NCBI GenBank assembly: GCA_016180645.1 | Contig: JACPAV010000020.1 | Location: 54,818-118,817, forward strand | Reading direction: 5' to 3' | Length of the DNA stretch: 64,000 nt | Source of the DNA: Nitrospirota bacterium | GTDB lineage: Bacteria; JACPQY01 | Shown: piece after piece, positions 13,881-63,698 of the stretch | How positions within the stretch are numbered: position 1 is the first letter of the stretch | Layout: every line of letters begins with the position of its first letter | Made by a program: the position numbers and the translations under genes | Notes under the pieces: generated by a model | What the model was told of the DNA's origin: nothing | The model's input: the letters and a program-made list of their open reading frames with translations, nothing else | The model's database searches: none

Positions 13881-14009
13881 GCCGAAGACGACGAGGACCT
13901 CGGGCGCGAGAAGCGAGCGCACGAGCGCGGTAAAGCTTCAAACAAGTCAGTCGGCTGCATGGCGGCCGATGAACAGACCGACGAACATCGGAGAAAGGAG
14001 GTGATGTCT

Positions 14010-14390
14010 ATGTTGATGGTATCGGGTACTGGGAGACTCACGGCGAAGCCGGAGCTTCGTTACAGCGGGGCGGGCAAGGCCGTCGCGACGTTTCGCGTCG
14101 CGGTGAACGAGCTGATTCCCGGCAAGAAGGACCCCGTCGCGAGCTTTTTCAACGTGGTCAGTTTCGGCAAAGCGGCCGAGCGACACGCCGAAAAGATCGA
14201 GAAGGGCCAACTGGTCGAGGTGCACGGGCGTCTGCGTGAGAACCGGTACGTGAAGGACGGGCAGAAGCGCAGCCGAGTCGAGATCGTGGCGCTAAGCGTC
14301 ATGCGTCTCTCGAAAAACGGCAACGGCAATGGCAACGGCCACACGGCCGAGCCGCCCACGGAACAGGATCTTCCGGTCGAGCCGGAGTAG
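14010..14390 (+). CDS. ssb: Single-stranded DNA-binding protein
   Basis: 126 residues with an OB-fold: SGTGRLTAKPELRYSGAG, ATFRVAVNE, FFNVVSFGKAAE and VHGRLRENRYVKDG are typical SSB strands. It protects ssDNA during replication and repair. The ATG at 14010 sits 8 nt from the SD AAGGAGG; the ATG at 14004 would be too close. The C-terminus is NGNGNGNG followed by EQDLPVEPE and lacks the acidic DDDIPF tip that normally recruits partner proteins. That tip appears instead on the protein at 15090. Confidence 0.93.
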   Translation: MLMVSGTGRLTAKPELRYSGAGKAVATFRVAVNELIPGKKDPVASFFNVVSFGKAAERHAEKIEKGQLVEVHGRLRENRYVKDGQKRSRVEIVALSVMRLSKNGNGNGNGHTAEPPTEQDLPVEPE

Positions 14391-33676: not shown

Positions 33677-34387
33677 ATGATTCTCACTCAACGCGCATTC
33701 GACAGCCTCTCCCTCGCCATCGGGCGGGTGGCACAAGCCCTGGACGCGCCGACCTATCGGCCGGCCTTCCTGATTCCGAGCTCGGTCTACGCGCTGACGG
33801 ACCTGGCGCTCAAGTCGGGTTATCCGGAGTACCACGACAAGGTTCACGTCGCAGACGGGGAAAACCACGTGGCGTTCACGGTGACGAACGGCAACGCCAT
33901 GGTACGCGTGACGTTCCCGCGCGAGACCGTGGAGGAATATCCAATGTTCGACGGCGTACCGGCAACCACGCTCGATTCCGAAGCAGTGCTTCCCGTCGAT
34001 ACGTTGAGGGCGTTCCTCAAGACCGCCAAGGATGGCCCCAGAAGCCTCCCGATCCTGAGGAAGGTCGCCTGCGCAATCAACGGCGACATCACCTTCGCCC
34101 ACACGGACTTGACCACACCCAAGGTGGTCAAGGTACCCAAGTCCGACAAGAAGTTCCCCGTTGTGGACAAATGCATTCCCAGGAAGAAGCCCGTTTTCAG
34201 CATCCACCTCAATCCGATCCTGCTGGTTGAAACGCTTCAAGTCATGGTGAAGACGCTATCGGAGCGGCCCGTTCAACCCTGTTTCACGTTCGAGTTCTAC
34301 GGCGAAGAGCAGCCCGTCCTCATCAAGGCAAAGAGCCTGGATTCAGAGACCACGGAACTGGGACTCGTGATGCCGATGCGCGACTGA
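33677..34387 (+). CDS. Divergent sliding-clamp-like protein
   Basis: 236 residues; SD AAAGGAG. The C-terminal half (FSIHLNPILLVETLQVMVK ... PVLIKAKSL ... LGLVMPMRD) follows the last domain of DNA polymerase III beta, including the closing MPMR peptide. At two thirds of the usual ~370 residues, one clamp domain may be absent or unrecognisable. It may be an alternative clamp or a clamp-like regulator beside the full-length DnaN at 54727. Confidence 0.6.
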   Translation: MILTQRAFDSLSLAIGRVAQALDAPTYRPAFLIPSSVYALTDLALKSGYPEYHDKVHVADGENHVAFTVTNGNAMVRVTFPRETVEEYPMFDGVPATTLDSEAVLPVDTLRAFLKTAKDGPRSLPILRKVACAINGDITFAHTDLTTPKVVKVPKSDKKFPVVDKCIPRKKPVFSIHLNPILLVETLQVMVKTLSERPVQPCFTFEFYGEEQPVLIKAKSLDSETTELGLVMPMRD

Positions 34388-34996: not shown

Positions 34997-35362
34997 ATGA
35001 AAAGGATCCGACCCATCGTCAATCCAGACCTTCGACGCGCGCTGGAGGCATTCAAGGACCGCCCCGGAGGGGACGGGCGCTACGTTGCCGCGTACTGGGA
35101 GCCCAACGGGGATGAACTATGCCTGGACAACGGGAGGCGGCTCGAATGCGGCCTCTCGGACAACTGGGCGTGGCTTCGATTCCTGCGGGACCCGGCAAAC
35201 CGGTACGAGCTTGAGAAGGTACAACTTGGTAACAGCGAGCACACGGCCAATGACTGGGTCGTGTTCGACCTGAAGACGAACGTCGTCTTCGTCGCCGATG
35301 CCGGAGGAGCAAAGGCATTCGTGCGCCGCCCCCTTCGCTACGCTCCGGGGACGGCGATATGA
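34997..35362 (+). CDS. Hypothetical protein ending in repeat A
   Basis: 121 residues from the ATG at 34997 (RPIVNPDLRRALEAFKDRPG; WVVFDLKTNVVFVADAGG). No family recognised. The last ~10 codons and the stop lie in repeat A5, so the original C-terminus is probably replaced. Confidence 0.5.
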   Translation: MKRIRPIVNPDLRRALEAFKDRPGGDGRYVAAYWEPNGDELCLDNGRRLECGLSDNWAWLRFLRDPANRYELEKVQLGNSEHTANDWVVFDLKTNVVFVADAGGAKAFVRRPLRYAPGTAI

Positions 35363-35385
35363 AAAATCATGGGATCCATGCGCCG
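35327..35385. repeat. Repeat family A, copy 5
   Basis: CCCCCTTCGCTACGCTCCGG, GGACGGCGATATGAAAAATC and ATGGGATCCATGCGCCGCC. It spans the end of the preceding gene. Confidence 0.75.
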
Positions 35386-35453: not shown

Positions 35454-36239
35454 ATGAAAGACCAGGAAACACAGGTTGAAGCCCGCACGGGCGAGGAACC
35501 GGAAAAGCCAACCGATGCATCCCCAGTCGGTGGGGAATCATCGCCCCATACGCCGGGCACTGGGGATGATGAGTCGAATCGCGACGAGACCGCCACGCCG
35601 GTGGACCCGTCCTGCGCAGTCCTTCCTTCGCCCGCCGAAGCGGGCTTCGCGAAGGCGGGAGCTGCTACGGAGGGGGAAACGACGGAGACAGAAAAAGACA
35701 AGGCTGAGACGGACACGGACGATGAGCCCGCTGACGACGTACCATCCCCGGCCGCGGCGGCCGGCGGCGAGGCGCAGGCACTGCCAGAAGGCGAGCGAAC
35801 CGGAAGGGAAGTCATCCCCTCCGCTGCGCTCCACGAACGAGGAGATGAAGAATCACGGGGGCCTTGCGTCGTCGTGACGCTTCAGTTTGCGGACCAAGGC
35901 GTCTTGATGGTGGTCTCGTCAACACTGGCCGGGGCGCCCGTCCTGGGACCGCGCAAGGTCCGGGCGGAGGACATGGGTGAGACACTACGGAGCGTTGTGG
36001 CGGGTTACCGACTCGACCTGGAGAAATTCAGGCTCGAGAAGAAAGCCAAAGAGGAAAAACAGGCCCGAAGGATCAAGACGAACACGGCTTCACGTGCCGG
36101 CATCACACCCAGTGCGCCGGCGACGAAAGCGGCGGTGCATACGGCCGGCCAGGCCACGGCTGGAACGCCCCCCGTGACAGGATCTCCAGAGAACGGGCCG
36201 CCTGCCGGGACAAAATCGGGTCAGCCGAGCCTCTTCTGA
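35454..36239 (+). CDS. PRTRC system protein E-like, with clamp-binding-like C-terminus
   Basis: 261 residues from the ATG at 35454 (SD AAGGAGA). The first ~130 residues are acidic, low complexity and include repeat A6 in frame. The conserved part (VTLQFADQGVLMVVSSTLAG ... MGETLRSVVAGYRLDLEKFR) is a small core followed by a coiled helix, as in PRTRC protein E; position directly before protein C supports this. The last residues GQPSLF match the QxxLF peptide that docks onto beta clamps. A function for protein E is not established. Confidence 0.6.
   Translation: MKDQETQVEARTGEEPEKPTDASPVGGESSPHTPGTGDDESNRDETATPVDPSCAVLPSPAEAGFAKAGAATEGETTETEKDKAETDTDDEPADDVPSPAAAAGGEAQALPEGERTGREVIPSAALHERGDEESRGPCVVVTLQFADQGVLMVVSSTLAGAPVLGPRKVRAEDMGETLRSVVAGYRLDLEKFRLEKKAKEEKQARRIKTNTASRAGITPSAPATKAAVHTAGQATAGTPPVTGSPENGPPAGTKSGQPSLF
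35811..35873. repeat. Repeat family A, copy 6
   Basis: TCCCCTCCGCTGCGCTCCAC, GAACGAGGAGATGAAGAATC and GGGGGCCTTGCGTCGTCG. In frame within the protein E-like gene. Confidence 0.8.
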
Positions 36240-36285
36240 GAGGACAACGAACCCATCCGGAAGAAAAGGAATACAGGAGCACAAG

Positions 36286-36540
36286 ATGGAAACACCACAA
36301 GAAGGCAAGACCAAAGAAGCACCCCCATCCCAGGGACAATTGGAAATGAGGAAACGGGTGTTCGTCTACGACGGCAAGCGATTCCCCGATCCGGATCCCG
36401 GCGCAAGCATCACGCAGGTGCGGGACGTCCTGCGCGGGGCGTTTCCGGAGCTGGCCGAGGCGGAGACGCAAACCAACACCCTGGCGGACGGCACGGAGGA
36501 GATCACCTTCCGGAAAGTCGCGGGACGAAAAGGCCGCTAG
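36286..36540 (+). CDS. PRTRC system protein C (prokaryotic ubiquitin-like)
   Basis: 84 residues. The core RKRVFVYDGKRFPDPDPGA ... TQVRDVLRGAFPELAEAE ... GTEEITFRKVAGRKG matches PRTRC protein C, which corresponds to the Prok_Ub (ubiquitin-like beta-grasp) family. It probably is the small modifier or substrate handled by the E1/E2/JAB proteins encoded at 37574-40123. It ends KGR, not in a bare Gly-Gly, so maturation or a different attachment chemistry would be needed for conjugation. Confidence 0.85.
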   Translation: METPQEGKTKEAPPSQGQLEMRKRVFVYDGKRFPDPDPGASITQVRDVLRGAFPELAEAETQTNTLADGTEEITFRKVAGRKGR

Positions 36541-36565
36541 AAGCCGTCGTTCGGCGGCAGCGGCC

Positions 36566-36814
36566 ATGGCGAAAACGGGGGCGATCAGCCGGATCCTGAA
36601 CGGACTCATCAAGGTCCCGGCCGACCCCATGAGCGAACAGGTGTGGGAGTTCCTCAGAATGGAGCCCTCGGCAGGAGAGCTGATCAAGCGGGGCGATGAA
36701 ATCCTGCAAGCCGTCCGAACGCTCGAAAGGCGAGTAGGGGGCGTGGAGGCCATCATCAAGCGAATCCAATGCACTCGGGCCATTCCTTCGAAAACAACGC
36801 CGCCAGGCCTGTAA
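36566..36814 (+). CDS. Small protein between PRTRC C and F
   Basis: 82 residues (SRILNGLIKVPADPMSEQVW ... AVRTLERRVGGVEAIIKRI), helical. Not a recognised PRTRC component. Its C-terminus overlaps the start of the next gene by 46 nt, unless that gene starts further downstream. Confidence 0.5.
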   Translation: MAKTGAISRILNGLIKVPADPMSEQVWEFLRMEPSAGELIKRGDEILQAVRTLERRVGGVEAIIKRIQCTRAIPSKTTPPGL

Positions 36815-37617
36815 GTCTATCGGCCATCCGGGGACTCCTTCTCGCCGGCACCCACCGGCTGAGGTACAGCTGGATGGCAGAACAGCTCGAGTCCCTTCTT
36901 GAGGTAAAGAACTTCCTGCTGGCCGCGCAGCGCCACCTGCCGGCCCGGGCCGAGTACCTGGGAAACGTGCTGCGGCAAAGAGGAGCGCTCAGCTGCTTCC
37001 TGGAGTTCTTGAACGCCCTCAGGGAGGAGGACGTTCTCCCCATACCGGACTACATGGGCGAAGAGGCGGATGAGATCACGACGACGATCCCCCTCAACGT
37101 CATGGGGATCCATTACGACTCGCTTCCGGACTTCGGGAAAGCCGCGTGCCTGGCGGCGGCGATGTGTAGCGACGACCCGTCGTTCCTCGGTCCTCTCCAT
37201 GACGCCGCCTGCGTTCCCCTGCGAGAGGAATTCTGCGTCTGGGGCGGAGTCTGCTCAGGGCAAGAAGACCTCAAATGGCTGCGAGGCGTCAAAGCCGGGC
37301 GGCAGTGGAGACATCTCCCAAGCCTCCTCACCTGGGTGCTCAAGAAGGGCGGGAACGCGTTTGTCGACTACTCCGATGAGGAGTTCTGCGAGATGGGGGA
37401 GCCGAACTGGGACGACATCGATCACGTGGTGAAGGAGTACGCCCGCGCCAGGAGCATTCTCGGCCGCGCGACCTGGATGCGCGACCGTGTGGATGAAGGA
37501 GGAGCGCCCCGCCTCAAGGAAATGGCCTGCATCCTTGAAACGGGGATGAACAACTTTCTGAAGGGACGATTTCATGACAACCGGCAGCTCACTCTTTGGC
37601 CTCATCCCGGACATTGA
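36769..37617 (+). CDS. PRTRC system protein F-like
   Basis: 282 residues from the ATG at 36769; an internal ATG near 36873 (MAEQLESLLEV) is the alternative. Cys- and Trp-rich central region (PLREEFCVWGGVCSGQEDLK). Assignment rests on gene order (E, C, F, B, A, ThiF) and size rather than on a motif. The tail RQLTLWPHPGH has a QLTLW peptide resembling clamp-binding QLxLF motifs. It overlaps protein B by 44 nt. Confidence 0.55.
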   Translation: MHSGHSFENNAARPVSLSAIRGLLLAGTHRLRYSWMAEQLESLLEVKNFLLAAQRHLPARAEYLGNVLRQRGALSCFLEFLNALREEDVLPIPDYMGEEADEITTTIPLNVMGIHYDSLPDFGKAACLAAAMCSDDPSFLGPLHDAACVPLREEFCVWGGVCSGQEDLKWLRGVKAGRQWRHLPSLLTWVLKKGGNAFVDYSDEEFCEMGEPNWDDIDHVVKEYARARSILGRATWMRDRVDEGGAPRLKEMACILETGMNNFLKGRFHDNRQLTLWPHPGH

Positions 37618-38272
37618 GCACGCGGCTCAGGAACTGCGGGCCCGGATCGACGTCTACGACGAATCGATCCACGTGGCCGTCCGGTCCGAGCGGGGAATCC
37701 GCCGTATGGAAGTCGCACCGGAAGATCTGGCGCACGCCTTCCAGGGAATCGCGCTCACAAGCGGAATCCTGCCCAAGGGCACGGTCTTCTGGGCATCGCG
37801 AGGGACCGGGACCCGAATCGGCGTCGAAATCCCACCGGGCCGCCGGGACGTCACGTGGCGGGAAAGTAGCGGGCGGATCCGGTCGGGTAGGATTCCATAT
37901 CCCCGACTTCTATTTATCGGAGAGGAGCGGTCCTACCGTCTCTACGCCCTCAAGAGCACACCACTGGAAAGGTCCACCGTCCTTTGGGAGGCGCCTTTCC
38001 CGAACATCTACGCCGACGGAAGGATCTGCCGGGGAACAGCGCCCTTCCCGGACGCGCATCCGCAAACGATGATGAAAGCCTTCGACGTCTTCATGGAGAG
38101 CGAGTTCAACGCGGACCTGTCGGGAAGGCGTTGCCATTCCTACCCGGAAGACGTCCGACGACTTTGGGAGGGAATACGAGGTCGAAGGCGCTTCCCGGAA
38201 ATCCAGTTGATCAAGACGCACCTGACGCTGGGAGACCTGATCGGAAAGGACCATGGACCCGACTTGCGATAG
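37574..38272 (+). CDS. PRTRC system protein B (Prok-E2 family D)
   Basis: 232 residues. The stretch APFPNIYADGRICRGTA at about residue 141 is the E2-like core with the candidate catalytic Cys in RICRG, as in PRTRC protein B/Prok-E2_D. Expected to accept the activated ubiquitin-like protein from the ThiF E1. It overlaps genes on both sides. Confidence 0.85.
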   Translation: MTTGSSLFGLIPDIEHAAQELRARIDVYDESIHVAVRSERGIRRMEVAPEDLAHAFQGIALTSGILPKGTVFWASRGTGTRIGVEIPPGRRDVTWRESSGRIRSGRIPYPRLLFIGEERSYRLYALKSTPLERSTVLWEAPFPNIYADGRICRGTAPFPDAHPQTMMKAFDVFMESEFNADLSGRRCHSYPEDVRRLWEGIRGRRRFPEIQLIKTHLTLGDLIGKDHGPDLR

Positions 38273-39059
38273 CCAAACTCGAGCATGGCTCAGAAGCTTG
38301 GTGGACTACCACGTCTACACGGGAGAGTCGCTGCCGCCCGTTGCAAGCCTGGCGGGATACGACTACGTGCTGGCGGGAAACGGCCTCTTCAAGAGGGCAC
38401 AGAACGCGCTCCTATCGGCGACCATCCGGACGGCCGCGTTCAAAGCGCCGCTCCTTCCCACCTTGGAGGAAAGCCTGTCGCTGACGCATGGAAGAGTTCC
38501 CGGAAGGCTCATGGGACTGGCACTCAAGGAGAGCCGAGAAATGGCGGAGGAGATGTCGCCGCGCGAGACACTCTTCTTGATCCGGTACGATCCAGAGGCG
38601 CAGACGTATACCCTCGAGCATCCCGAGACGGAGGTTGGCACGTTCGCCGGCGTGGAGTACAGGGTTGAGGATCCCACAAACATTCTGGTCGACCTTCACA
38701 GCCACCACAATATGGCGGCCTGGTTCTCCGAAACGGACGACCGCGACGAGCAGGGACTACGAGTGTACGGAGTACTGGGACGAGTCGGCACACGGCCGGA
38801 GCTGGCGCTGCGAGTGGGCATCTACGGACACCATGGTGCGATTCGAGCAGAAGACGTTTTCGATGGCGTAACGTCACTCGTGGAAGAGGACGGGGGATCC
38901 GAGCCGCGCGATCTGAAAGAGGAAGCCGGGAAAGGAGATCCGACCTCCCGGGATCCCGACACGGAGGGAACACTGGTCCTTACGGGGAAAACCGCACAGG
39001 GACTATTCGAGCAGCTCAGAAGGTGCTGGGAAGCCCTGACCCCACGAGGACGAAGATGA
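38253..39059 (+). CDS. PRTRC system protein A (JAB/MPN metallopeptidase)
   Basis: 268 residues. The JAB zinc motif is LVDLHSHHNMAAWFSETDDRD at about residues 144-164 (HxH, then S and D). JAB peptidases cleave isopeptide bonds or trim ubiquitin-like precursors, so this gene product probably processes the protein C modifier. An N-terminal ~120-residue domain is unrecognised. The ATGA overlap couples it to ThiF. Confidence 0.85.
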   Translation: MDPTCDSQTRAWLRSLVDYHVYTGESLPPVASLAGYDYVLAGNGLFKRAQNALLSATIRTAAFKAPLLPTLEESLSLTHGRVPGRLMGLALKESREMAEEMSPRETLFLIRYDPEAQTYTLEHPETEVGTFAGVEYRVEDPTNILVDLHSHHNMAAWFSETDDRDEQGLRVYGVLGRVGTRPELALRVGIYGHHGAIRAEDVFDGVTSLVEEDGGSEPRDLKEEAGKGDPTSRDPDTEGTLVLTGKTAQGLFEQLRRCWEALTPRGRR

Positions 39060-40123
39060 AAAGAGGGGGACAGGTCATCGTCCCCTCCGCTCCGCTCCAC
39101 GGACGACGAGATGAAAAATCATGGGGGCGTTGCGTCGACTTTTCGCCTCTCTGGAGAATGGTCTTCAACACACGAGCAGAGTTTTCGATTCTCCACGTGG
39201 GCTGCGGTGGAACAGGCAGTTTCCTCTCCGGAAGCCTGGCGAGACTCGCCCATACGGCGAGGAGAACAGGACTAACCCTCGACGTCGTATTCATCGACCC
39301 GGACACGGTCACGGAAGCAAACGTAGGACGCCAAAACTTCTGCCCCGCCGACGTGGGGCGTCCAAAGGCAGAGGCTCTGTCGGAGCGGTACAACCGGGCG
39401 TACGGGTGGAACAGCACGGCGGTGGTCGAACACTTCAAGGTGTGGGCAAACGACCATAAAGCCAATCGACACATCGGGGGACTCGTTGTCGGCTGTGTAG
39501 ACACGGCGGCCGCGCGCCGGGAAATCGCGGAGTGGATCCAAGGAGCATGGGGGGGATGGTTCTGGCTGGACCTCGGCAACCACCGGCTGTCGGGACAGGT
39601 GCTTTTCGGAAACTTGGCGCGCAAAATCGGTCCCCCCGATCGAGTGGAAGGAGTTCGACTCCTGAAAGGTCTGCCGCTTCCCTCCTTTCAACACCCCGAT
39701 TTGCTACAGGACGAGCCGCAAGAGGCCGGGTCGGCCATCCTAGCCGCTCCCGCCTTCGCGACTCGTGCTACGCAGCGAAGCCCTGCTTCGCAGAGTGGCA
39801 AGCCCGCTACGGCGGGCGAAGGAAGGTCCGGCACCGCTTCCGCGTCCTGCGGGCGGAGCGACACACCGACGTCCTGCGCCGCGCGCATCGAGCGAGGCGA
39901 ACAGGGGCTGTTCGTCAACCAAATGGCCGCGGCCGTAGGGGCGGAGTACCTGTACGACATGCTGGTCACGGGGGAGATGAGGCGCTTCGCCACATACTTC
40001 GACCTCGAAAGCGGTTCGATGAGATCGCTCGCGACAACTGAGGCCAACCTTCGGCGGTTCAGCCGCCGGGAGAGAAAGCAGGACGGCAGCAAAGCGACCC
40101 CACTTCAGGCAGCCGCCGCATAG
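39056..40123 (+). CDS. PRTRC system ThiF protein (E1-like)
   Basis: 355 residues from the ATG at 39056. The nucleotide-binding loop HVGCGGTGSFLSG is at about residue 46; VVFIDPDTVTEANVGRQNF is the metal/adenylate-binding region; VVGCVDTAAARREI continues the Rossmann fold. A candidate catalytic Cys is in TSCAARIERGEQGLFVNQ near residue 273. Two foreign segments are read in frame: repeat A7 in the N-terminus (about residues 8-28) and a composite B3/palindrome block (39724-39862) immediately before the catalytic-Cys segment. Role: adenylation and transfer of the ubiquitin-like protein to the E2-like protein B. Confidence 0.88.
   Translation: MKRGGQVIVPSAPLHGRRDEKSWGRCVDFSPLWRMVFNTRAEFSILHVGCGGTGSFLSGSLARLAHTARRTGLTLDVVFIDPDTVTEANVGRQNFCPADVGRPKAEALSERYNRAYGWNSTAVVEHFKVWANDHKANRHIGGLVVGCVDTAAARREIAEWIQGAWGGWFWLDLGNHRLSGQVLFGNLARKIGPPDRVEGVRLLKGLPLPSFQHPDLLQDEPQEAGSAILAAPAFATRATQRSPASQSGKPATAGEGRSGTASASCGRSDTPTSCAARIERGEQGLFVNQMAAAVGAEYLYDMLVTGEMRRFATYFDLESGSMRSLATTEANLRRFSRRERKQDGSKATPLQAAAA
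39077..39138. repeat. Repeat family A, copy 7
   Basis: CATCGTCCCCTCCGCTCCGC, TCCACGGACGACGAGATGAA and AAATCATGGGGGCGTTGCGT. In frame in the ThiF N-terminus. Confidence 0.85.
39724..39862. repeat. Repeat family B, copy 3, interrupted by other palindromes
   Basis: The B left half (GGCCGGGTCGGCCATCCTAG) and right half (GTCCGGCACCGCTTCCGCGT) are separated by ~70 bp of CTTCGCGACTCGTGCTACGC and GCCCGCTACGGCGGGCG palindromes. The whole block is an in-frame insertion in ThiF. Confidence 0.8.
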
Positions 40124-40161: not shown

Positions 40162-42024
40162 ATGCCAGAGATTTGCGCGTCAGTGGATCCCAACATCATC
40201 AGGGAACTTCCACGGTTTTTCGGCAGCTGGGTCTGCGCCCTCGGGGAACTCCTGCAGAACGCCTACCGTGCGGGGGCAGGGAAAGTCGATATGATGGTCG
40301 ACAAGACCTCAGGGCTCCTGTCGATCACGGACGACGGCGCGGGCATGGAAGAACCGGGAGTCCTTCTCCGGGCGGGAGCCAGCGGCTGGAATGGCACCGT
40401 GGTGGATCCTGCAGGGCTGGGATTTTTCGCCCACCTGGCCTTCGTCACGCAGACGTGCGTTACATCGGGACGCCCGGGGCGACGATGGCGTCTAACTCTG
40501 ACGCCGGAGATCCTAAGCGGAGGGCCGGCGACCTGGGAGAACGTGACTGCGACGGAAGCGCAGAGCGGCACGCGAATCGAGCTCACGCTGAAACCCGGAG
40601 CGATCGCACTCAAGGACGAAGAGGTTGAGGAAACCGTCCGATCGGCACGAGCCTACTACCCCTTCAGGCTCACACTGAACGGACGGGTCATCGAGCCCCG
40701 GAGCCGGTTCCAACCGCTGCTCACCGTAGAAACGCCGGCGGGACCGGCCAAGATCGGTCCGCGACCGGGAGCGTACCGAGGCGGATTCCATGCCGTATGG
40801 GAACACCGCGTGATCGGATCGGAGATCGGCGGATCCTCCGCCTTTCAGAACGGGATGCAGGCGGCCGCGAAGAAGTGCCGAAGACCCATGCTTGCGAAGG
40901 AACTCATGTGTCTGCATTGGGAGTGGTTTGTAAGTCCCGACTGCGGGGTGAGGCCCAGGCTTCCGGAGAGGAGCGAGCTGATCGACAACGAAGCCCTGAA
41001 GAACGCCTGCGGGTCTCTCCTTGATGCCGTCGTCACCATCGTTGAAAAGGCGATCACGGGGGCCGGTGACCTGCCCGACAAAATCGGGGCAATGGACGAC
41101 GATCTGTGCAAGCAGCTGGGCGGCGGACTGCTACCCAAGGAACTGATAACCGGCATCTGGCACACCATCTGGGAGGAGCTCATACCTGGGTACGTCAGGG
41201 TAAGCTGGAATAATCCCACGGACTTCGAGTGCTGGTACCGGGAAAACAACGGGATCATGGTCCGGCGATTGGGAAGGTATTTCTATACGCGCAGGGCCGT
41301 CCTGACCAGCTCGTCCGACCTGGAGCAGACACTGAACCTCCTGGGACACGATACGTCGTTCATACCCGGGGCCGTGAGCCCCAGGGTCATCATCAGGGGG
41401 CTGAGGCAATCGAACGAAAGCCCCGATGTGGCCTTGGCGGAGTCGATCGAGGTGGAAGGAATCGGGTCGATTCCGTTCATCCTGAAAGACGTCGAGGAAG
41501 AGCGTGCCGAAGCGCCGTACGCCGAGGACGAGTCTGGGAGACCCTTGGAGGTGGAGAAGCTCATCGTGTACGCAGGCAGCCCGGAAGAGTTTATCCGGGT
41601 GCTCGAAGGGGGCGACGAACGGTTTTCAAACGCGTTCTTTCTCGCCCGGCACTACTTGGGGGACGAGTGGGAATGGTGCGACGTCGATGGCGAGGACGTC
41701 TCCATAAGTCACGGTACGATCCGCGAGGAACTGATCGAACAGGTGACCAAAGGATTCCGTGCTGATCGGCTCCAGGCCACCGAGCGGTATTTCAAGACGA
41801 ATGCCGCAGTGGACCGGGTACGAACGGTTCGGGAGGACCTGAGCGCGGCCACGAAGGAAATCGCGCATCCGTTCATGTCCGACAAGCGCGAGATCGAGGA
41901 CTTGCTCGAAACGGCGGCGACTAATCTTAGGAAGGCCGAAAGACTCGTCCTCAAGGAATGCACAAGACTCAGGAAGGAAGCCGGGATGGCCTCCTCAGAG
42001 GAGGCGGGCGGCGTGCCGGCCTAA
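40162..42024 (+). CDS. GHKL (Hsp90/MutL/histidine-kinase-like) ATPase
   Basis: 620 residues; SD AAAGGAC. Bergerat fold: N-box LGELLQNAYRAGAGK with Glu29 and Asn33; G1 box DDGAGM at 57-62; a lid-like GASGWNGTVVDPAGLGFFAH at about 72-91. No kinase phospho-acceptor or receiver domain is visible, so a MutL- or Hsp90-like mechanical ATPase is more likely than a sensor kinase. The large C-terminal part is unrecognised. It follows ThiF by 38 bp and may belong functionally to the PRTRC cassette. Confidence 0.8.
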   Translation: MPEICASVDPNIIRELPRFFGSWVCALGELLQNAYRAGAGKVDMMVDKTSGLLSITDDGAGMEEPGVLLRAGASGWNGTVVDPAGLGFFAHLAFVTQTCVTSGRPGRRWRLTLTPEILSGGPATWENVTATEAQSGTRIELTLKPGAIALKDEEVEETVRSARAYYPFRLTLNGRVIEPRSRFQPLLTVETPAGPAKIGPRPGAYRGGFHAVWEHRVIGSEIGGSSAFQNGMQAAAKKCRRPMLAKELMCLHWEWFVSPDCGVRPRLPERSELIDNEALKNACGSLLDAVVTIVEKAITGAGDLPDKIGAMDDDLCKQLGGGLLPKELITGIWHTIWEELIPGYVRVSWNNPTDFECWYRENNGIMVRRLGRYFYTRRAVLTSSSDLEQTLNLLGHDTSFIPGAVSPRVIIRGLRQSNESPDVALAESIEVEGIGSIPFILKDVEEERAEAPYAEDESGRPLEVEKLIVYAGSPEEFIRVLEGGDERFSNAFFLARHYLGDEWEWCDVDGEDVSISHGTIREELIEQVTKGFRADRLQATERYFKTNAAVDRVRTVREDLSAATKEIAHPFMSDKREIEDLLETAATNLRKAERLVLKECTRLRKEAGMASSEEAGGVPA

Positions 42025-42142
42025 GAGGCCGGTAGCGCGAGCTCGGAACAGGTCCAAGAAGAAAACAAATGCCGGCGGCAAGCCGATGGGCCGCGGGACA
42101 TGAGACGGAGGAACCACGCGAAACGGACGAGGAAGAGGCCCC

Positions 42143-47436: not shown

Positions 47437-47539
47437 AAACAGAACAAGTCCACCCCCGTCCAGGCACACACCGTCAGGACGGATCCACCCCATGAAACCA
47501 AGAGCGAGAGACAGTTCAGCCAGGAACCGGAGAAACGAG

Positions 47540-48418
47540 ATGACACCAATAGCAGCAACCGCGGAGAGCACTTCAGAAGTCACACCTCCCGGAGACCAAC
47601 TCATTCTCATCGAGGTAAGGAAGAAGCAGGCTGCCATGCGGCGGGTCGCCGTGAGGGACATCGTCCTTTCCGGACCCGCGCCCGACGTAAAAAAGCTGGC
47701 CGACTCGATCGGTCGGGTCGGACTCCTCCAGGCGCCGACCCTTGAGGCCGCTGGCGACGGGCGCTACCGGGTTCGGGCGGGCCGCCGGCGCGTGTGGGCC
47801 CTTCGATCGCTTGGCTGGGAGATGATCGACGCAAGGGTTTACGACGAGGGGGACCTGAGCGAAGTGGAGCGCGTAGGGATTCTTCTCACGGAAAATGGGA
47901 ACCGATCTGAAAACCCCGTGGCTGAACTGGCAGCGATCGAGAGGCTTGTCGCCTCCGGACTTACGGCAAAGGGCATCGCGAAAAGCCTGGGGCAACCCAG
48001 CACATGGGTAAAAGCGCGGCTCGCCCTTCGAAACCTCTCACCCGACCTACGGAAGGCGCTTGAAACGGGGACGCTGACGCTGAGCACGGCCCTGCGCGCA
48101 GCGAGACTCAATAAAGAAGAGCAAGGCGCCCTGGTCGAGAAATGGCAGGAGGAAGGAGCAGAACGGATCAGCCTCGACGCCGTGGAGGCCATGAAAAAGA
48201 AGGAACCGGTGTCCGTTCCCCTCCGGATGTTCGCCACCGACCCGACCAAAGGAAACGAGCCGCTGGAGCGGGTGCGAAGAATCAAGGAGGGCCTACGGGA
48301 CCTTCTGAAGGAACTAAAGCACACGGGCAATGAAGGGGCCGCGAAACATGCGCAAGAAGCCTACGAGTGTCTTGGACGCCTGCGCGCGGCCCTCGAAACA
48401 AAGGAAGGAAAAGACTGA
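47540..48418 (+). CDS. parB: ParB-like partition protein
   Basis: 292 residues from the ATG at 47540. ParB/Srx-type N-terminal domain: KKLADSIGRVGLLQAPTLEA ... YRVRAGRRRVWALRSLGW; the ENGNRSENPVAELAAIERLV helix and the helix-turn-helix TAKGIAKSLGQPSTWVKARL follow. Likely segregates the element by binding a centromere site and may be the ParB of the PRTRC group, although it lies 7 kb from the cassette. No ParA was seen. The stop overlaps the next ATG. Confidence 0.88.
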   Translation: MTPIAATAESTSEVTPPGDQLILIEVRKKQAAMRRVAVRDIVLSGPAPDVKKLADSIGRVGLLQAPTLEAAGDGRYRVRAGRRRVWALRSLGWEMIDARVYDEGDLSEVERVGILLTENGNRSENPVAELAAIERLVASGLTAKGIAKSLGQPSTWVKARLALRNLSPDLRKALETGTLTLSTALRAARLNKEEQGALVEKWQEEGAERISLDAVEAMKKKEPVSVPLRMFATDPTKGNEPLERVRRIKEGLRDLLKELKHTGNEGAAKHAQEAYECLGRLRAALETKEGKD

Positions 48419-51336: not shown

Positions 51337-52338
51337 ATCCACGGAGAAGGACAGATTCGGCTCGGATTTTATCCCGCGCCCCCCAAAGTCGTGGAGGCGT
51401 TGCGGACAGCGGTCCACAATCCCGGGACCACGTTCGCAGCCCTGGATCCGTGCGCGGGAGAAGGAGCAGCGCTCGCAGGTCTGACCGGCGGAACCCGGGC
51501 CATCACGTACGGAATCGAACTTGATCAGGTGCGGGCGCGGCGCGCCGGCGAGAAGCTCCAGCACGTGCTCCACACGAGCCTGTTCGACACCTTCATCGAA
51601 CCCGGCAGCATCTCGCTCCTTCTTCTCAACCCGCCCTACGACGATGCCGGAGGCCGCCGGCTCGAGGAGCGATTCCTGCGACGGGCGTGGCCGGCACTGA
51701 AGCCAGAGGGGGTTCTCGTTTTCATTGTGCCGGAGATTCTCCTCAGAGACTACCAAGTACGCGTTGTTCTTGGATGCCGGTTCCACTCCATCAAGGCCTA
51801 CCGTTTTCCCGAGGGAGAGTACGAACGATTCCGGCAAATATTCGTCATCGGCAAGCTGAGGGCCGACCCGGATTGGCACAGGCGTGAGCACGACATCCCG
51901 ACCGAGCCCTTCGAGAGCTTGGGCAAACATCTTCGGGTTTCCGGACCCTGGAGCATTCCGTACGGAAAAGCGCTCTCAACCTTCACCTGCACGGAGGTCA
52001 GCGAAGATGACGTAAGGGCCGAGCTCGAAACGGGCACTTCGGCCCGGTGGCTCGCCGACAAACTGCGGGGAACCTTCGCGCAGATGGAACGACCCCTCAT
52101 GCCCCTCAAGAAAGGCCACATTGTGCAGCTCCTCCTGGGCGGATTTCTGGACAACACGGTGATCGAGCTTCCCGGAGAGAAAGGTCCCAGGCGGGTGGCC
52201 GTCAAGGGATTTTCCCAAAAGCACACGCATACGTTCGAAGACGAGGAGAAGGGCAAGACGATCATCCGGGAATACATGCAATGCGGAGTCAATATCCTTG
52301 ACCTCGCCACGGGACAAATCGAGGAGATGAGATTTTGA
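51337..52338 (+). CDS. DUF6094-type SAM-dependent methyltransferase, ATC start candidate
   Basis: 333 residues from ATC 51337, or 315 from GTG 51391. LDPCAGEGAALAGLT is the SAM-binding motif I; LLLNPPYDDAGG is the NPPY motif of N6-adenine/N4-cytosine DNA or RNA methylation. The upstream extension RLGFYPAPPKVVEAL is the conserved entry segment of this family, so the GTG start would be too late. SD AAAGGAG is 7 nt from the ATC. It overlaps the helicase gene (TTGA), suggesting a functional pair. Confidence 0.82.
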   Translation: MHGEGQIRLGFYPAPPKVVEALRTAVHNPGTTFAALDPCAGEGAALAGLTGGTRAITYGIELDQVRARRAGEKLQHVLHTSLFDTFIEPGSISLLLLNPPYDDAGGRRLEERFLRRAWPALKPEGVLVFIVPEILLRDYQVRVVLGCRFHSIKAYRFPEGEYERFRQIFVIGKLRADPDWHRREHDIPTEPFESLGKHLRVSGPWSIPYGKALSTFTCTEVSEDDVRAELETGTSARWLADKLRGTFAQMERPLMPLKKGHIVQLLLGGFLDNTVIELPGEKGPRRVAVKGFSQKHTHTFEDEEKGKTIIREYMQCGVNILDLATGQIEEMRF

Positions 52339-54698
52339 GCGCTGCCGTTGAAACCATCGGACAGGAAGGCCCATGGCCGGGACACACGCCCACGGGAGAA
52401 CCCAGCGCCGGAGAGGACGGTCCGGTCGAGGTAAGCGGAAGTTCCGCCCTCCGGTTTATTGAAGAGCACGGAGACCTTCTCCTTAACCGTGTTGTAGACG
52501 CCTACCCCCCACTGTACGGGGGCACGGTACCGCCCGCCGTGGCAAACCACGTGGCCGGGCTGAAACGAACGCCTTTCCCCGCGCAGCAGCACGCGATCGC
52601 GGCGCTGTGGACGAGGCTTGGGGAGGCCCACGGGGTCGACGCGCCTTTTGTCGGCGAGATGGGCGTGGGGAAAACCTTGTGTGCACTCGCCCAGGCCCAC
52701 ATCCTAATCCAGGAGCAGTTCGGCGGCCTGGGGCGGATTCTCGTCTTATGCCCATCCCACCTGCTCAGGAAATGGCAGAAGGAGGCGCAGGACACGATCC
52801 CCGCGTGCGAGACCTACATCCTTCGAACGCTCTCCGACATCGACCATGTGTTTCAAGGGAAACTGAACGGTACCCAGGTCCTTCTGTTATCCAAGGAGAC
52901 GGCCAAGTTGGGGATGCCACGGCATGCAACTTTCTGGCAAAGTCGATCCAAGAGGAACGGCGTCTTCTTCTGTCCCCACTGCGGAGCCGGTGAAATCACC
53001 TACCAGGACCCGAACCGCCCGCACACCGAGGACCGGGAGACCCATCCGCCCAATCCGGACTCGAAGAAATTCCCCTACTGCGCCGAGTGCGACGCACCCC
53101 TCTGGACCTGGACACGCCTGCCCGGGGGGAGGGCCCGGTACCCGCTGGCCGAATACATCGCACGGCGCCGGTACGGGATTCAAGTTTTCATTCCCGACGA
53201 AGTGCACCAGTTCAAGGGAGGCAACACGGCCCAAGGCGCGGCATTCTACCGGCTCTCGCGACAAGCGAAAAAGATGATCCTTGCGACAGGAACGATCGTC
53301 AACGGATACAGTTCCAGCCTCTTTTACCTGCTGTACCGAATCTCACCGGAGGTACGAAGGGAGTTCGGGTTCAATGAGGTCCAGCGATGGATCGAGCTGT
53401 ACGGTTGCACGGAGAAGATCATCCACCACGAGGAGGGAGACGCGGGCATCGTGACACGCAAGCACGCGGTGCGCGAGACCGTGCGGGAGAGGCCCGGCAT
53501 ATCGCCGCTCGTCTTCAGGTATCTGCTGAATCGGACCGTGTTTCTCTCGCTTCGGGACGTCCACGAGGCCCTTCCCGACTTCGAGGAACTCCCCGTCGCC
53601 GTACCGATGAGCGACTCCCAGAAGAAGCTCTACGAGGAGATCGAAACGGGCTTCAGGTACCTCCAAGGCCTCGACCGGGACCCAAAAAGCATGGGGCTCT
53701 TCCTGCAGGTACTTCTCTCCTGGCCCGACAACCCGTGGAAGTCGGAAGCCATCGTCAACCGGGAGATGAAAGAGGTCTATCATGTACCCGCCCTTGAAGG
53801 GACAAGCGAAAGCCGGGAGCTCCTTCCCAAAGAGGAAAAGCTTCTCGATGTAATCCGTACGGAAGCCCGCCAGCGGAGGAAAGTGTTTCTGTTTGCAACC
53901 TTCACGGGAGTACGAGACGTCCAGCCGCGGCTTGCGGAGGTCCTCACGCGAGCGGGTCTGCGCGTGACTACCCTACGGTCCGACACCGTGAAGGCGGAGG
54001 ATCGAATGGAATGGATCGAGCAGGCGTCGAAGTCGAGCGACGTGATCATTGCGAATCCCCGTCTTGTGGAAGTCGGTCTCGACCTGATCGACTTTCCAAC
54101 GCTGATCTACTACCAGTCCGAGTACAACCTGTACACCTTGAGACAATCCAGCCGCCGCTCCTGGAGGATCGGGCAGACCCGGCCCGTCAAAGTCTATTAC
54201 TTCTACTACACGAGGACCGCGCAGGAGAAAGCGACGGCTCTGAGCGGCAAGAAGCTCGCTGCCGCGCTGATGATCGACGGCGAGTCCATTCCGGAGCAGG
54301 GGCTGGCGGCCGGCGAAGGATCAAGCATCCTGTCGGAGCTCTCGGACGCGCTCATGAGAAATACGCAGCTCCCGGATATCCGCGAGATATTCGCGAAGTC
54401 CCGTGTCCAGGGAGGACTGAGCGCGCCCCGCACCAATCCCAGCGAATACCTTTCCCAAGCGGACAGTGGGAAGGCGATGCCGCCTGGTCGGCTGCACACC
54501 TCGCCCGAGAATGGATGGTCGCAAGGATTGGTGCGGGGCGCGTCGGCGGCCCTGCCTGCCGCGACGGCGCAGGCAGGGAACTCGGCCGAGACGGGAACCA
54601 AGGGCGCAGAGCAAAGCGCCATCAACCATGTCGGGACGGAAGAAGTACAGCCTCCCACACCCAAGGCCAATAAGCGGGGGCAGTTCCTGCTCTTCTGA
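52335..54698 (+). CDS. SNF2-type helicase/ATPase with zinc insert
   Basis: 787 residues from a TTG at 52335. Walker A GEMGVGKTLCALAQ at about 108; motif II PDEVHQF at about 287; between them a zinc-ribbon insert (CPHCGAG ... CAECDAPLW). C-terminal helicase lobe: FATFTGVRDVQPRLAEVLTR, NPRLVEVGLDL, SSRRSWRIGQTRPVKVYYF (motif VI with the RIGQ typical of SNF2). MITE-like element F2 is read in frame at about residues 698-736. The last residues GQFLLF resemble a clamp-binding peptide. Probable DNA translocase in replication or repair of the element. Confidence 0.9.
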   Translation: MSAAVETIGQEGPWPGHTPTGEPSAGEDGPVEVSGSSALRFIEEHGDLLLNRVVDAYPPLYGGTVPPAVANHVAGLKRTPFPAQQHAIAALWTRLGEAHGVDAPFVGEMGVGKTLCALAQAHILIQEQFGGLGRILVLCPSHLLRKWQKEAQDTIPACETYILRTLSDIDHVFQGKLNGTQVLLLSKETAKLGMPRHATFWQSRSKRNGVFFCPHCGAGEITYQDPNRPHTEDRETHPPNPDSKKFPYCAECDAPLWTWTRLPGGRARYPLAEYIARRRYGIQVFIPDEVHQFKGGNTAQGAAFYRLSRQAKKMILATGTIVNGYSSSLFYLLYRISPEVRREFGFNEVQRWIELYGCTEKIIHHEEGDAGIVTRKHAVRETVRERPGISPLVFRYLLNRTVFLSLRDVHEALPDFEELPVAVPMSDSQKKLYEEIETGFRYLQGLDRDPKSMGLFLQVLLSWPDNPWKSEAIVNREMKEVYHVPALEGTSESRELLPKEEKLLDVIRTEARQRRKVFLFATFTGVRDVQPRLAEVLTRAGLRVTTLRSDTVKAEDRMEWIEQASKSSDVIIANPRLVEVGLDLIDFPTLIYYQSEYNLYTLRQSSRRSWRIGQTRPVKVYYFYYTRTAQEKATALSGKKLAAALMIDGESIPEQGLAAGEGSSILSELSDALMRNTQLPDIREIFAKSRVQGGLSAPRTNPSEYLSQADSGKAMPPGRLHTSPENGWSQGLVRGASAALPAATAQAGNSAETGTKGAEQSAINHVGTEEVQPPTPKANKRGQFLLF
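54427..54545. mobile_element. MITE-like element F, copy 2
   Basis: GCGCCCCGCACCAATCC at the left and GGATTGGTGCGGGGCGCG at the right; the interior is the reverse complement of 16690-16850 without its 35-bp extra palindrome. It is fully open in the helicase frame. Confidence 0.85.
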
Positions 54699-54726
54699 AC
54701 ACCCCCATCGAAAGGAGACCCAACCC

Positions 54727-55875
54727 ATGCAGTTCGAAATCACACCCACAAGCTTCCTTACGGCCTCGGCGTTTGTCGCGGGGCTGTGCAAAGGCAGAAC
54801 GTCCAGCATGCCCGTCCTGAAGAACATGCTCATTCAATCAGCGGGGCCCGACCGGCTCGAAATAGCGGCCACGAACATCGAAACATTCGCCAAGGTGAGC
54901 GCCCCGGCCACCGTGGGCGCCGAGGGCAGCCTATGCGTCCCCGGAGACCTCATCATCGACATGATGCGGGAAGGAAAGCAGCTCAAAAGCCTCACGATGA
55001 AGGCACTCGAGAAGGGCCATGCCCGCGTGCATCTGGGCGACGCGGAGTATCAGATCGTGGGAATCGACCCGAACGACTACCCCAAGATGGAGGCGGCCCT
55101 CGGGGATACTCCCACGGCAAAGGCCGCGCTCCAGGGAGAAGCCCTCACCACACTCCTCAAGCGGATCTTACATTCAGCGCCACAAGACGCGTGCAACTCA
55201 GGGAGAGGCATCCTCCTCGAGTTCGAGAAAGGGCACATACGCGCCACGACAACCGACGGGCACAGACTTGCATCCGCGACGGCTGAAGCCGTGGTGGAGA
55301 TCCAGCCCGGACCGGAGGGAGCACAGAACATCATCCTTTCGACGGAGTCGGCGCGCAAACTTGCCGAACTGGGGGGAGCGACAATCGGCTGGGTGGAGAT
55401 CGTGGTCGGGAAAACAGCTCTCAAGGCCACCGCGGAGGGAAAAGACGGACTCAAGGTTACCGTTGGGACGAGGCTCATCGAGGGAACCTTTCCAAAATGG
55501 AGAGACGTCGTGCGCAAGACACATACGACGACGGTAACCGTCGAAAGGAACCATCTCAAATCGGGCCTTGAGCGGGCCTCGATTCTGGCCGGGCCCCTCA
55601 CCCAGGGGGCGCGGATGGAGTTCACTGAGAAGGGGTTGGAAGTCACGCTCAAGAACCCCGACGCCGGCGAGATGAGGGAATCCCTGGCCGCCTGGCAGAC
55701 GGGGCCGGACACCGCGATTACGGCAAACGTGGCCTATTTGCTCGACGCACTCGGCGGAGTGACGAATGATCAGGTGCAAATCGCGCTCGCCGGACCGGAG
55801 GGCGCTGTGGACATCCGGAATGCCGGCGACACGCAAGTCGGTTACGTCGCGCTCGTGATGCCGATGAGACAGTAG
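54727..55875 (+). CDS. dnaN: DNA polymerase III beta subunit (sliding clamp)
   Basis: 382 residues, full family length; SD AAAGGAGA. SMPVLKNMLIQSAGPDRLEI in domain 1, TTTDGHRLASATAEAV in domain 2 and the C-terminal GYVALVMPMRQ are DnaN hallmarks. An element-encoded clamp implies its own replication; proteins here with terminal QPSLF, QFLLF or QLTLW may dock to it. A second, shorter clamp-like protein is at 33677. Confidence 0.93.
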   Translation: MQFEITPTSFLTASAFVAGLCKGRTSSMPVLKNMLIQSAGPDRLEIAATNIETFAKVSAPATVGAEGSLCVPGDLIIDMMREGKQLKSLTMKALEKGHARVHLGDAEYQIVGIDPNDYPKMEAALGDTPTAKAALQGEALTTLLKRILHSAPQDACNSGRGILLEFEKGHIRATTTDGHRLASATAEAVVEIQPGPEGAQNIILSTESARKLAELGGATIGWVEIVVGKTALKATAEGKDGLKVTVGTRLIEGTFPKWRDVVRKTHTTTVTVERNHLKSGLERASILAGPLTQGARMEFTEKGLEVTLKNPDAGEMRESLAAWQTGPDTAITANVAYLLDALGGVTNDQVQIALAGPEGAVDIRNAGDTQVGYVALVMPMRQ

Positions 55876-56697: not shown

Positions 56698-57763
56698 GAG
56701 CGACCTCGAGACCCTCAAGGCCGTCCCGATCCGGGACGTAGCGGCGCGGCTCGGCCTCCTGACGGCCAATGGCCGGCAGGCCCGGTGCTTTCGCGCGGAG
56801 AATCACAGCCACGGCGACCGGAGGCCGAGCCTGCACCTCCACGTCGGCAAGAACCGGTTCAAGTGTTTCGTCTGCCCGGAAACCTACGGAGACGTCATCG
56901 ACCTCGTCCGCCTGACAAGGGGTATCGATTTCGGGGAGGCCTGCGATTGGCTGAGGGGAGGCGGGTTTGCCGCCACGGCGATCAGACCCACACCCGAGAT
57001 CACTTCACACCCCGTGGATACAAAGGTCTACGAGGCGTTCTACAGCCTTCTCGACACAGGTCACGTCCTCCTCGACCGGTTCTGCGACGAACGGGGAATT
57101 TCCATTCAGGTGTGCAAAAAGGCCGGAACACGGGTCCTCGGGCAGTACGACTCCGTCCAAAACGCGCTTTTTCGGTGGTTCGGAGCCGAGCGGGTGAAGC
57201 GCGCGGGGCTTGCCAATCAGGCCGGCCACCTCATTTTCTACGCGCACCGGATCATCTTTCCCTGGAAAAACGAAAGCGGAACACCGACTTACTTCACCGC
57301 GCGCGCGGTCAAGGGGGTGAACGACGGCCCCAAAGAGCTTTGCCTCATTGGGACCACGCCGGTGCTTCCGTACAACGCGCCCACGGTAACGACGGGCCAG
57401 GACATCCACATTTGCGAAGGGAACATCGACGCGCTGACGCTTGAAGACATGGCGCTTCGAGCCGTGGCCACCGGCGGAACGGAAGGTCTCAGACGCTCAT
57501 GGATCGGCTGGCTCAAAAGCAAGCGAGTCAGCTCAGTGATTCCGGCCTACGACGCCGACAGCACGGGCCAGGCAAAGTCAAGGGAGGTCGAAGAACTTGC
57601 CAGGAAGGTCGGCCTCAAAGTGGGAAGACTCTTCCTGCCTACGGGCCACGACGTCAACAGCTACTTCGGAAAAGGCCCGACCAAAAAGGCCATGTTCCAT
57701 GTGGCCCGTCCTGGGCCACAACATATCATGGCCCCATACCCTCCGTGGCATGGGGCCGCCTGA
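56684..57763 (+). CDS. CHC2/TOPRIM DNA primase, ACG start candidate
   Basis: 359 residues from ACG 56684. CHC2-type zinc finger Cys35, His41, Cys61 and Cys64 (RCFRAENH ... FKCFVC); TOPRIM acids in HICEGNIDAL (about 242) and AYDADSTGQAK (about 288). It would make RNA primers for element replication. The first ATG/GTG/TTG in frame is GTG 57014, after the whole zinc domain, so a start upstream is required; GGAGGAG lies 7 nt before an ACG. The C-terminal ~25 residues (FHVARPGPQHIMAPYPPWHG) come from repeat E2. Confidence 0.85.
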   Translation, partial: TKPPKSDLETLKAVPIRDVAARLGLLTANGRQARCFRAENHSHGDRRPSLHLHVGKNRFKCFVCPETYGDVIDLVRLTRGIDFGEACDWLRGGGFAATAIRPTPEITSHPVDTKVYEAFYSLLDTGHVLLDRFCDERGISIQVCKKAGTRVLGQYDSVQNALFRWFGAERVKRAGLANQAGHLIFYAHRIIFPWKNESGTPTYFTARAVKGVNDGPKELCLIGTTPVLPYNAPTVTTGQDIHICEGNIDALTLEDMALRAVATGGTEGLRRSWIGWLKSKRVSSVIPAYDADSTGQAKSREVEELARKVGLKVGRLFLPTGHDVNSYFGKGPTKKAMFHVARPGPQHIMAPYPPWHGAA

Positions 57764-63352: not shown

Positions 63353-63522
63353 TCCGTCTACTCTACGCCTGCCGGCCCATAGGTCAAGCATGCCAGCCAG
63401 GACGGTGCGGTACTCGGCCTCCAGAGCCGAGCCACGAAGGTGAGGCATACTTGGCCGAGTGCCCCGGGGGCCGATTCCATGTGGGTTGGGGCCGAATAAA
63501 CCGGTCATGCAGAATGGGGGCG
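63270..63522. repeat. 253-bp direct repeat, right copy
   Basis: Nearly identical to 4891-5142; it includes the lipoprotein start and its upstream region. Similarity ends at AGAATGGGGGCG (63511-63522). Confidence 0.9.
63360..63387 (-). promoter_or_regulatory. Candidate promoter of lipoprotein copy 2
   Basis: TTGACC (63382-63387), 16-nt spacer, TAGAGT (63360-63365); the ATG is seven bases beyond the -10. Same as in front of copy 1. The rest of 63353-63698 shows no gene. Confidence 0.4.
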
Positions 63523-63698
63523 AAATCAGATGGAAATGTCGAGTTCGGCCACTGGAGGGCCAGCGGAGGCCACCGGCAGGGGTTTCGGGGCGTGCGCCAG
63601 GAGACATACTTACTGGGAGTGGGTCAAGACACTCCCGATTGACCAGATTCGTAAACCGGCCAACCCGGGCAGGAAGGGGGGAAGGTTCGGGGTGAAGT

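Follow-up and report, generated by a model that had tools for sequence, protein, structure and literature searches.

A second, PRTRC-like type of cassette for putative ubiquitin-like conjugation and its possible link to the sliding clamp

Introduction

The closest described relatives of the locus considered here are the PRTRC system and operon class 6d. PRTRC genes (NCBIfam TIGR03734-TIGR03742), for example those of Cupriavidus metallidurans pMOL28, follow the order E-C-F-B-A-ThiF and are carried on large mobile replicons. Class 6d, as set out by Iyer et al. (2006; PMC1779556), unites a ubiquitin-like protein (Ubl), a JAB peptidase, an E1-like and an E2-like enzyme, and a helical protein; its distribution is sporadic and mobile, and the JAB protein was proposed there to process the Ubl and to remove it. 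Of the open-access papers that contain the word PRTRC, some of them by chance, none is by its title or abstract a functional study of these cassettes. The subject of this work is a cassette with all five components of class 6d on the forward strand of a 64,000-nucleotide stretch (hereafter the window) of contig JACPAV010000020.1, from a Nitrospirota bacterium.

The original prediction, made from the letters alone, placed overlapping genes for proteins E, C, F, B, A, and ThiF at positions 35454-40123. All are present at those coordinates as open, overlapping frames, and the full series reads E-C-T-F-B-A-ThiF. The names T and F2, the latter for the family found in the F slot, are labels of the present analysis, and the name E rests on position. 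About 168 loci show, as a rule, all or part of the order C-F-B-A-ThiF; as it recurs in more than 100 loci, a chance origin is excluded. The best reading of the locus is a mobile replicon's Ubl-conjugation cassette that represents a second PRTRC-like type and works at the element's replisome, a composite reading whose chances we regard as evenly poised.

Match to the PRTRC models

The proteins were compared with the NCBIfam PRTRC equivalog models and with Pfam, each with its own cut-offs. Two of them reach the equivalog level: protein C scores 55.7 bits against TIGR03738 (cut-off 45.95) and 47.5 bits against Prok_Ub, and ThiF scores 157.6 bits against TIGR03736 (cut-off 144.75). Protein B falls below its equivalog cut-off (62.8 bits against TIGR03737, cut-off 131.45) and passes Prok-E2_D with 67.9 bits (Pfam cut-off 25); protein A is likewise below (71.3 bits against TIGR03735, cut-off 101.8), with a Prok-JAB score of 27, just above the Pfam cut-off of 25. 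C and B are above the cut-offs of Prok_Ub and Prok-E2_D, two of the models that the original prediction named as a check. Comparison by sequence with solved structures gave a weak match of ThiF to the NEDD8 E1 (7e-4), none for B, and nothing below 0.2 for C.

The remaining members of "the PRTRC set" fare differently. Proteins E and F have no NCBIfam match up to an E-value of 10, E has no Pfam match up to an E-value of 1, and F is also without a Pfam model, so that their designation as PRTRC E and F is not confirmed. Homology of F to PRTRC_F (TIGR03742) was specifically ruled out by hmmscan and by profile-profile comparison (probability 0.2% against the alignment of canonical F proteins). PRTRC_D (TIGR03739) has no match up to an E-value of 10 in the whole 4.7 Mb genome, in agreement with the earlier failure to see a D gene. 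The ParB gene that had been placed 7 kb away does exist as a ParB-like gene 7.4 kb past ThiF, but at 29.1 bits it is far under the PRTRC_parB cut-off (TIGR03734, 278.6). Accordingly, the set as first named stands for C and ThiF, is below the cut-offs for B and A, and fails for E, F, D, and ParB. Judged from sequence, the cassette is of a known kind, PRTRC or class 6d, but it is a second PRTRC-like type and not a textbook PRTRC system.

Catalytic residues and the predicted conjugation pathway

ThiF retains G44xGGTG, D76, N84, R87, K99, CVD142-144, and S268-C269 (numbered from 39071). The last pair is invariant in the alignment with relatives, and Cys269 becomes Cys240 if translation starts at 39158; this ATG is the probable start, since a dispersed repeat occupies the sequence just before it. 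In protein B, Asn144 and Cys152 within PNIYADGRIC are both invariant in the alignment, and their spacing of eight is that of eukaryotic E2s. Protein A keeps the H-x-H..S..D signature of JAB peptidases, and protein C carries a single Arg after its Gly-Arg-Lys-Gly.

In the predicted pathway, A would cut off whatever residue(s) follow Gly-Arg-Lys-Gly in protein C. The exposed Gly would be adenylated by ThiF, C would then be taken onto Cys269 of ThiF, handed to Cys152 of B, and from there passed to target proteins, from which A might also be able to take it off. As chemistry, this succession, in which A matures the Ubl, ThiF activates it, and B transfers it, is very probable, given the homologies and the active-site residues, which also support the modifier pathway that had been suggested earlier. 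One feature of B may count against it. A His downstream of the E2 Cys is described as absolutely conserved (PMC1779556); where proteobacterial relatives have F[ST]H the window protein has FNAD, with a His a few residues further on.

ThiF also contains a 40-residue in-frame insert (39755-39890) directly before the catalytic Ser-Cys. The insert is absent from all aligned relatives and holds dispersed repeats with 17 matches in the genome.

Peptidase A and the tail of protein C

The tail of protein C was surveyed in the 244 cassettes that have C, B, and ThiF. Nearly every C protein carries G-x-K-G near its end. In all 59 cassettes without A, C ends exactly at this motif, and in 168 of the 185 cassettes with A, residues follow it (more than 10 in 159 cassettes, 1-10 in 9, the window among the latter). 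In the first set, which further scans enlarged to the 244, C ended at the motif in 18 of 18 A-less cassettes, three of them with a one-letter variant of it, and no JAB motif was found nearby. The A-less cassettes are otherwise intact, in the order E-C-F-B-ThiF with B mostly abutting ThiF. A search for PRTRC_A through the entire records or genomes of 12 A-less loci (11 and, in addition, L018) found none, while it detected PRTRC_A in three A-bearing controls; some A-less genomes do hold other Prok-JAB proteins. Two Anaerolineae loci, L069 and L074, sit inside a clade of cassettes with A and a fused tail (support 87), yet they are without A, their C ends in GRKG, and a separate T-like open reading frame (ORF) lies right behind C, with a match to the T profile for L074.

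The association of tail and A has a Fisher value of 4e-18 on dereplicated rows, which are not independent. None of the phylogenetic pairs runs contrary to the association. Several points speak against taking A as the enzyme that matures C. Seventeen of the 185 cassettes with A have no residue after GxKG, and therefore A must have another role too. On the tree, A changes only 4 times, 2 of them on supported branches, so that a paired sign test is without power; a branch-length argument, at a p of about 0.04, is the one test to reach this level. Many of the IMG/VR loci are fragmentary or redundant. The loss of A, moreover, is concentrated in one large clade. Taken together, the comparisons of sequence make a good but not conclusive case for A as the maturation peptidase of C.

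The A-less cassette of L018 (Deinococcus proteolyticus pDEIPR02, 1-8000) contains a tandem duplication of F-B-ThiF, and a GHKL gene of the window's family lies about 2.5 kb downstream of it.

Protein T and the second type of cassette

The gene for T, which the original prediction did not list, is out of frame with C and overlaps F by 46 bases. Seven relatives have homologous small ORFs at the corresponding place, with a common PxPS..PPxGF-like tail. A profile of these small proteins matches the extended C-termini of protein C elsewhere (8.7e-15 for L028, 1.3e-11 for L135, and 1.9e-10 for L039), and hhalign of all C tails against the small T proteins gives an E-value of 1.1e-11 over 80 columns. 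An [IV]PxGF or PPxGF ending is shared by the separate T proteins and the C tails of L030, L066, L075, L008, and other loci. In 54 loci the T domain is joined to C, after its Gly-x-Lys-Gly, and in 26, the window among these, it is separate. By these sequence matches, T is a detached homologue of the tail domain that is fused to C in relatives. The counterpart of the tail of the relatives' modifier precursor would thus be made here as a separate, probably co-translated helical protein. The AlphaFold2 model of T is helical, with a predicted local distance difference test (pLDDT) score of 86, and a fold search in BFVD gave no match up to an E-value of 0.001.

T keeps company with one family of F proteins. 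Among the 244 cassettes it is present in 74 of the 87 with F2, in none of the 92 with canonical PRTRC_F, and in none of the 65 with neither F; phage cassettes with canonical F have a different type of C tail (CPLLDEEVAFINALHARYC). The iterated hidden Markov model (HMM) of F2 reaches 61 loci, and no similarity between F2 and canonical PRTRC-F was detectable by profile. The model of the window's F is helical as well (pLDDT 79); fold searches in the PDB and BFVD gave no match up to an E-value of 0.001, and tblastn found no F in plasmids. Because T is restricted to F2 loci, a second cassette type can be defined, consisting of C(+T), F2, B, A, and ThiF. It occurs in Cyanobacteria, Chloroflexi, Acidobacteria, a metagenome-assembled genome (MAG) of Elusimicrobia, and many viral contigs. 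Against the open-access literature searched, three things appear to be new: T, the form that lacks JAB, and the survey of tails.

Protein E and the sliding clamp

Protein E ends with SGQPSLF followed by the stop codon, an ending that the original prediction did not mention. The consensus for binding to the bacterial sliding clamp is QL[S/D]LF or QxxLF (PMC12309361), and proteins of mobile elements are known to carry such a motif at their C-terminus (PMC4549789). The end of E agrees with the pentapeptide QxxLF, much as in PolC and insertion sequence (IS) transposases, where the motif is also at the extreme C-terminus; unlike these, E has no polymerase or transposase domain.

Enrichment of this ending was measured for the non-ParB ORFs directly upstream of C, which form 63 sequence clusters, with the motif counted if it was present in at least half of the members. 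A Q..LF end (QISLF, QLSLF, QQSLF, QLTLF, and others) was found in 12 of the 63 clusters versus 17 of 1284 neighboring ORFs (1.3%; Fisher 1e-9). Among over 600 other proteins (cassette, ParB, and DnaN) it is confined to 2 of 54 F proteins, and inside the E proteins its rate is 0.7% per equal stretch. Other clamp-related features are found nearby. The SNF2-type helicase of the window ends in QFLLF, which is also clamp-binding-like. The short gene upstream of E, which the original prediction also lacked, matches phrog_947, a DNA polymerase processivity factor, at 2.4e-4, and hhalign aligns it weakly with the C-terminus of DnaN (E-value 1.6e-4, probability 50%).

A proposed role for E would be to tether the machinery, or itself, through QPSLF to a clamp, whether the element's DnaN, the short clamp-like protein, or the clamp of the host. 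Were E so placed, the likely targets would be proteins found at the replication fork of the element or in its partition complex. This proposal must be weighed against several facts. E has no homology-based family assignment in NCBIfam or Pfam; the clamp motif, read from sequence, is short, and its second position is Pro in the window; nor is the motif universal, since the large clusters of proteobacterial E proteins have xxDL[FYL] or acidic runs at the end. A similar sequence near the end of F, RQLTLW, may be due to chance, as QLTLW occurs in only 1 other of the 54 F proteins. On this evidence, action at the replisome through E is a proposition that could go either way. That the clamp or its clients are modified covalently is more doubtful. 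Equally tentative is the wider picture of a Ubl system that docks on the clamp, as a counterpart on plasmids and phages of PCNA ubiquitylation and SUMOylation, whose modifier would be matured by JAB from a Ubl-T precursor that is split here.

Genomic setting and alternative explanations

ThiF-based searches yielded 392 plasmid records, 13 phage records, and 80 genome loci, in addition to IMG/VR loci; a viral scan with the window's ThiF alone gave no match. DnaN is encoded in 20 loci and ParB-like genes occur in 52, and thus a setting of replication and partition is a recurring feature of the class. A protein with a DnaA_N domain recurs in 18 loci, mostly downstream. The clamp, primase, SSB, and helicase attributed to the window were all located, as DnaN, a toprim/primase protein, a single-stranded DNA-binding protein (SSB), and the SNF2 helicase. 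No phage-type integrase is present on the window's contig (C20). The coupling to element replication that the original prediction had floated is strengthened by the clamp-like end of E and by the clamp and ParB neighbors of many relatives, and it is in this sense that we infer it.

This setting bears on an alternative that we consider rather unlikely, namely that the cassette serves in defense against phages or competitors by tagging proteins of invading replicons, as reported for other bacterial Ubl systems. Protection against invasive replicons was put forward in 2006 as a role of these mobile operons (PMC1779556), Ubl conjugation is reported to be antiphage in type II CBASS (cyclic oligonucleotide-based antiphage signaling system; PMC10097602), and ThiF partially matches PADLOC E1-E2 models. 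However, those matches cover just part of the E1 domain (best 33.5 bits), C, T, F, B, and A have none, and in plasmids and phages the cassette is surrounded by genes for replication and partition rather than lying in defense islands. The phages include an isolated one, the Mu-like Burkholderia phage BgVeeders33, in which the cassette adjoins full structural genes.

The same phage figures in a second alternative, which is unlikely: modification of host proteins, for takeover or counter-defense, in aid of the element's replication or establishment. BgVeeders33 is complete and bears the cassette, IMG/VR contigs supply many of the nearest relatives of full length, and six loci have a terminase no more than 5 kb away. 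Yet the cassette is equally common on stable large plasmids, and the sole hint of a host target in the sequence, possible docking on the host clamp, is common to the leading explanation of action at the replisome.

It is also improbable that the association of tail and JAB and the motif of E are accidents of ancestry in a decaying, repeat-riddled PRTRC copy. Dispersed repeats do lie in E, before ThiF, and within ThiF next to the catalytic Cys, and the confinement of most A losses to one clade would fit. But every frame is open, every catalytic residue is retained, T is conserved in 80 loci, and the A-less, T-split pair L069/L074 provides an independent case. Finally, sulfur transfer of the ThiS/ThiF kind by C and ThiF, instead of protein conjugation, is highly improbable: ThiF is a ThiF-family E1 and PAPS-reductase-like genes lie both just downstream (SspD-like) and upstream, but an E2-like enzyme with a conserved Cys and a JAB peptidase are present, C ends in GxKG and not GG, and most relatives have no PAPS-type genes beside them.

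Gene positions and neighboring genes

Table 1. Positions in the window of the genes of the cassette and of genes discussed with it (aa, amino acids)
Feature	Position	Strand	Basis
Divergent short sliding-clamp-like protein, 236 aa, ends VMPMRD	33677..34387	+	phrog_947, hhalign to DnaN
Protein E (named by position), low-complexity, ends QPSLF (36222-36236)	35454..36239	+	sequence reading; motif enrichment
Protein C, putative ubiquitin-like modifier, G-R-K-G (36523-36534) plus one Arg	36286..36540	+	TIGR03738, Prok_Ub, tail survey
T, 82-aa helical protein, homologue of C tail domain	36566..36814	+	hmmsearch, hhalign, model, distribution
F-slot protein (F2 family), helical, TGNxWLD..W conserved, near-C-terminal RQLTLW	36769..37617	+	iterated HMM
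Protein B, E2-like, PNIYADGRIC	37574..38272	+	Prok-E2_D, alignment
Protein A, predicted JAB metallopeptidase, HSHHNMAAWFSETD (H149, H151, S159, D162)	38253..39059	+	Prok-JAB, motif
ThiF, predicted E1-like adenylyltransferase (GCGGTG, CVD, ..PTSC)	39158..40123, ORF open from 39023	+	TIGR03736, alignment
GHKL ATPase	40162..42024	+	HATPase_c_3
ParB-like partition protein, Noc/KorB type	47492..48418	+	profile searches
SNF2-type helicase, ends QFLLF	52335..54698	+	profile search; end read from sequence
Full-length DnaN sliding clamp	54466..55875	+	TIGR00663 148.4 bits (cut-off 137.65); Pfam beta-clamp domains
Toprim primase-like protein	57014..57763	+	profile search
Single-stranded DNA-binding protein (SSB)	13959..14390	+	phrog_44 1.4e-31

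The GHKL ATPase follows ThiF at once, a position noted in the original prediction as unusual for the set, and rightly so, with such a gene beside the cassette in 3 of the about 168 loci. The protein matches HATPase_c_3, and its family is common on large plasmids, with 95 plasmid records from Deinococcus, sphingomonads, and others. For these two reasons GHKL was rejected as a component of the cassette, and it is probably an incidental local neighbor.

Further genes of the window include one at 42128-42916 for a protein with the PAPS-reductase fold (PADLOC SspD, 1.8e-15), possibly related to DNA modification, which is followed by a RadC protein. A 571-aa C5 cytosine methyltransferase with a long insert between its two conserved parts is encoded at 28424-30139. 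On the reverse strand, at the edge of the block of forward-strand genes, 58886-63709 encodes a protein of 1607 aa that combines RCC1 repeats with Ig-like domains of bacterial type.

A dispersed repeat of about 60-80 bp occurs in the window at 39070-39150, 35812-35871, 35327-35373, and 43833-43891, with one copy in frame inside E and one just before the probable start of ThiF. Its 42 matches genome-wide are concentrated on the window's contig (C20) and on another, C25, and may mark the two as related replicons. We take the repeat to resemble the protein-coding palindromic elements of Rickettsia.

Comparison with described systems

The closest relative of the window cassette is on a contig of the Elusimicrobia MAG (JAKFYJ010000039), with a ThiF that is 39% identical and that groups with the window's in the ThiF tree (support 77). 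Its layout, C-T(split)-F2-B-A-ThiF, is the same; unlike the window, it is a short contig, its C ends exactly at GTKG, and its E ends in FAF rather than QxxLF. The cassette of Sulfuricystis multivorans plasmid pSTJ1 resembles the window in its series of primase, dnaN, and then E, C, a small ORF, F, B, A, and ThiF, with dnaN directly before E. It differs in that its F is canonical (a weak TIGR03742 match), its small ORF has no match to T, and its ThiF is 31-34% identical.

The likeness to the PRTRC system lies in gene order, in a C and a ThiF above the family cut-offs, and in residence on large mobile replicons. The window cassette departs from it in a B and an A under the equivalog cut-offs, an E and an F with no model match, the F being of a different family, the lack of D, a ParB that is neither PRTRC_parB nor adjacent, the extra T gene, and the GHKL gene next to it. 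With class 6d it has in common a sporadic, mobile distribution and, within one operon, JAB, E1-like, E2-like, and helical proteins together with a Ubl with a conserved C-terminal Gly, though the window's C has one residue beyond it. The class 6d paper, in its accessible part, makes no note of a link to the clamp and describes a standalone Ubl with JAB always adjacent; the forms found here are T-fused, T-split, JAB-less, and T-F2. Three statements that can be tested follow from the comparison: that JAB trims after GxKG, that T, a precursor tail that has become detached, goes with one family of F, and that E reaches the clamp. If the last were true, it would provide a first target site for a widespread bacterial Ubl system, in parallel to the modification of PCNA.

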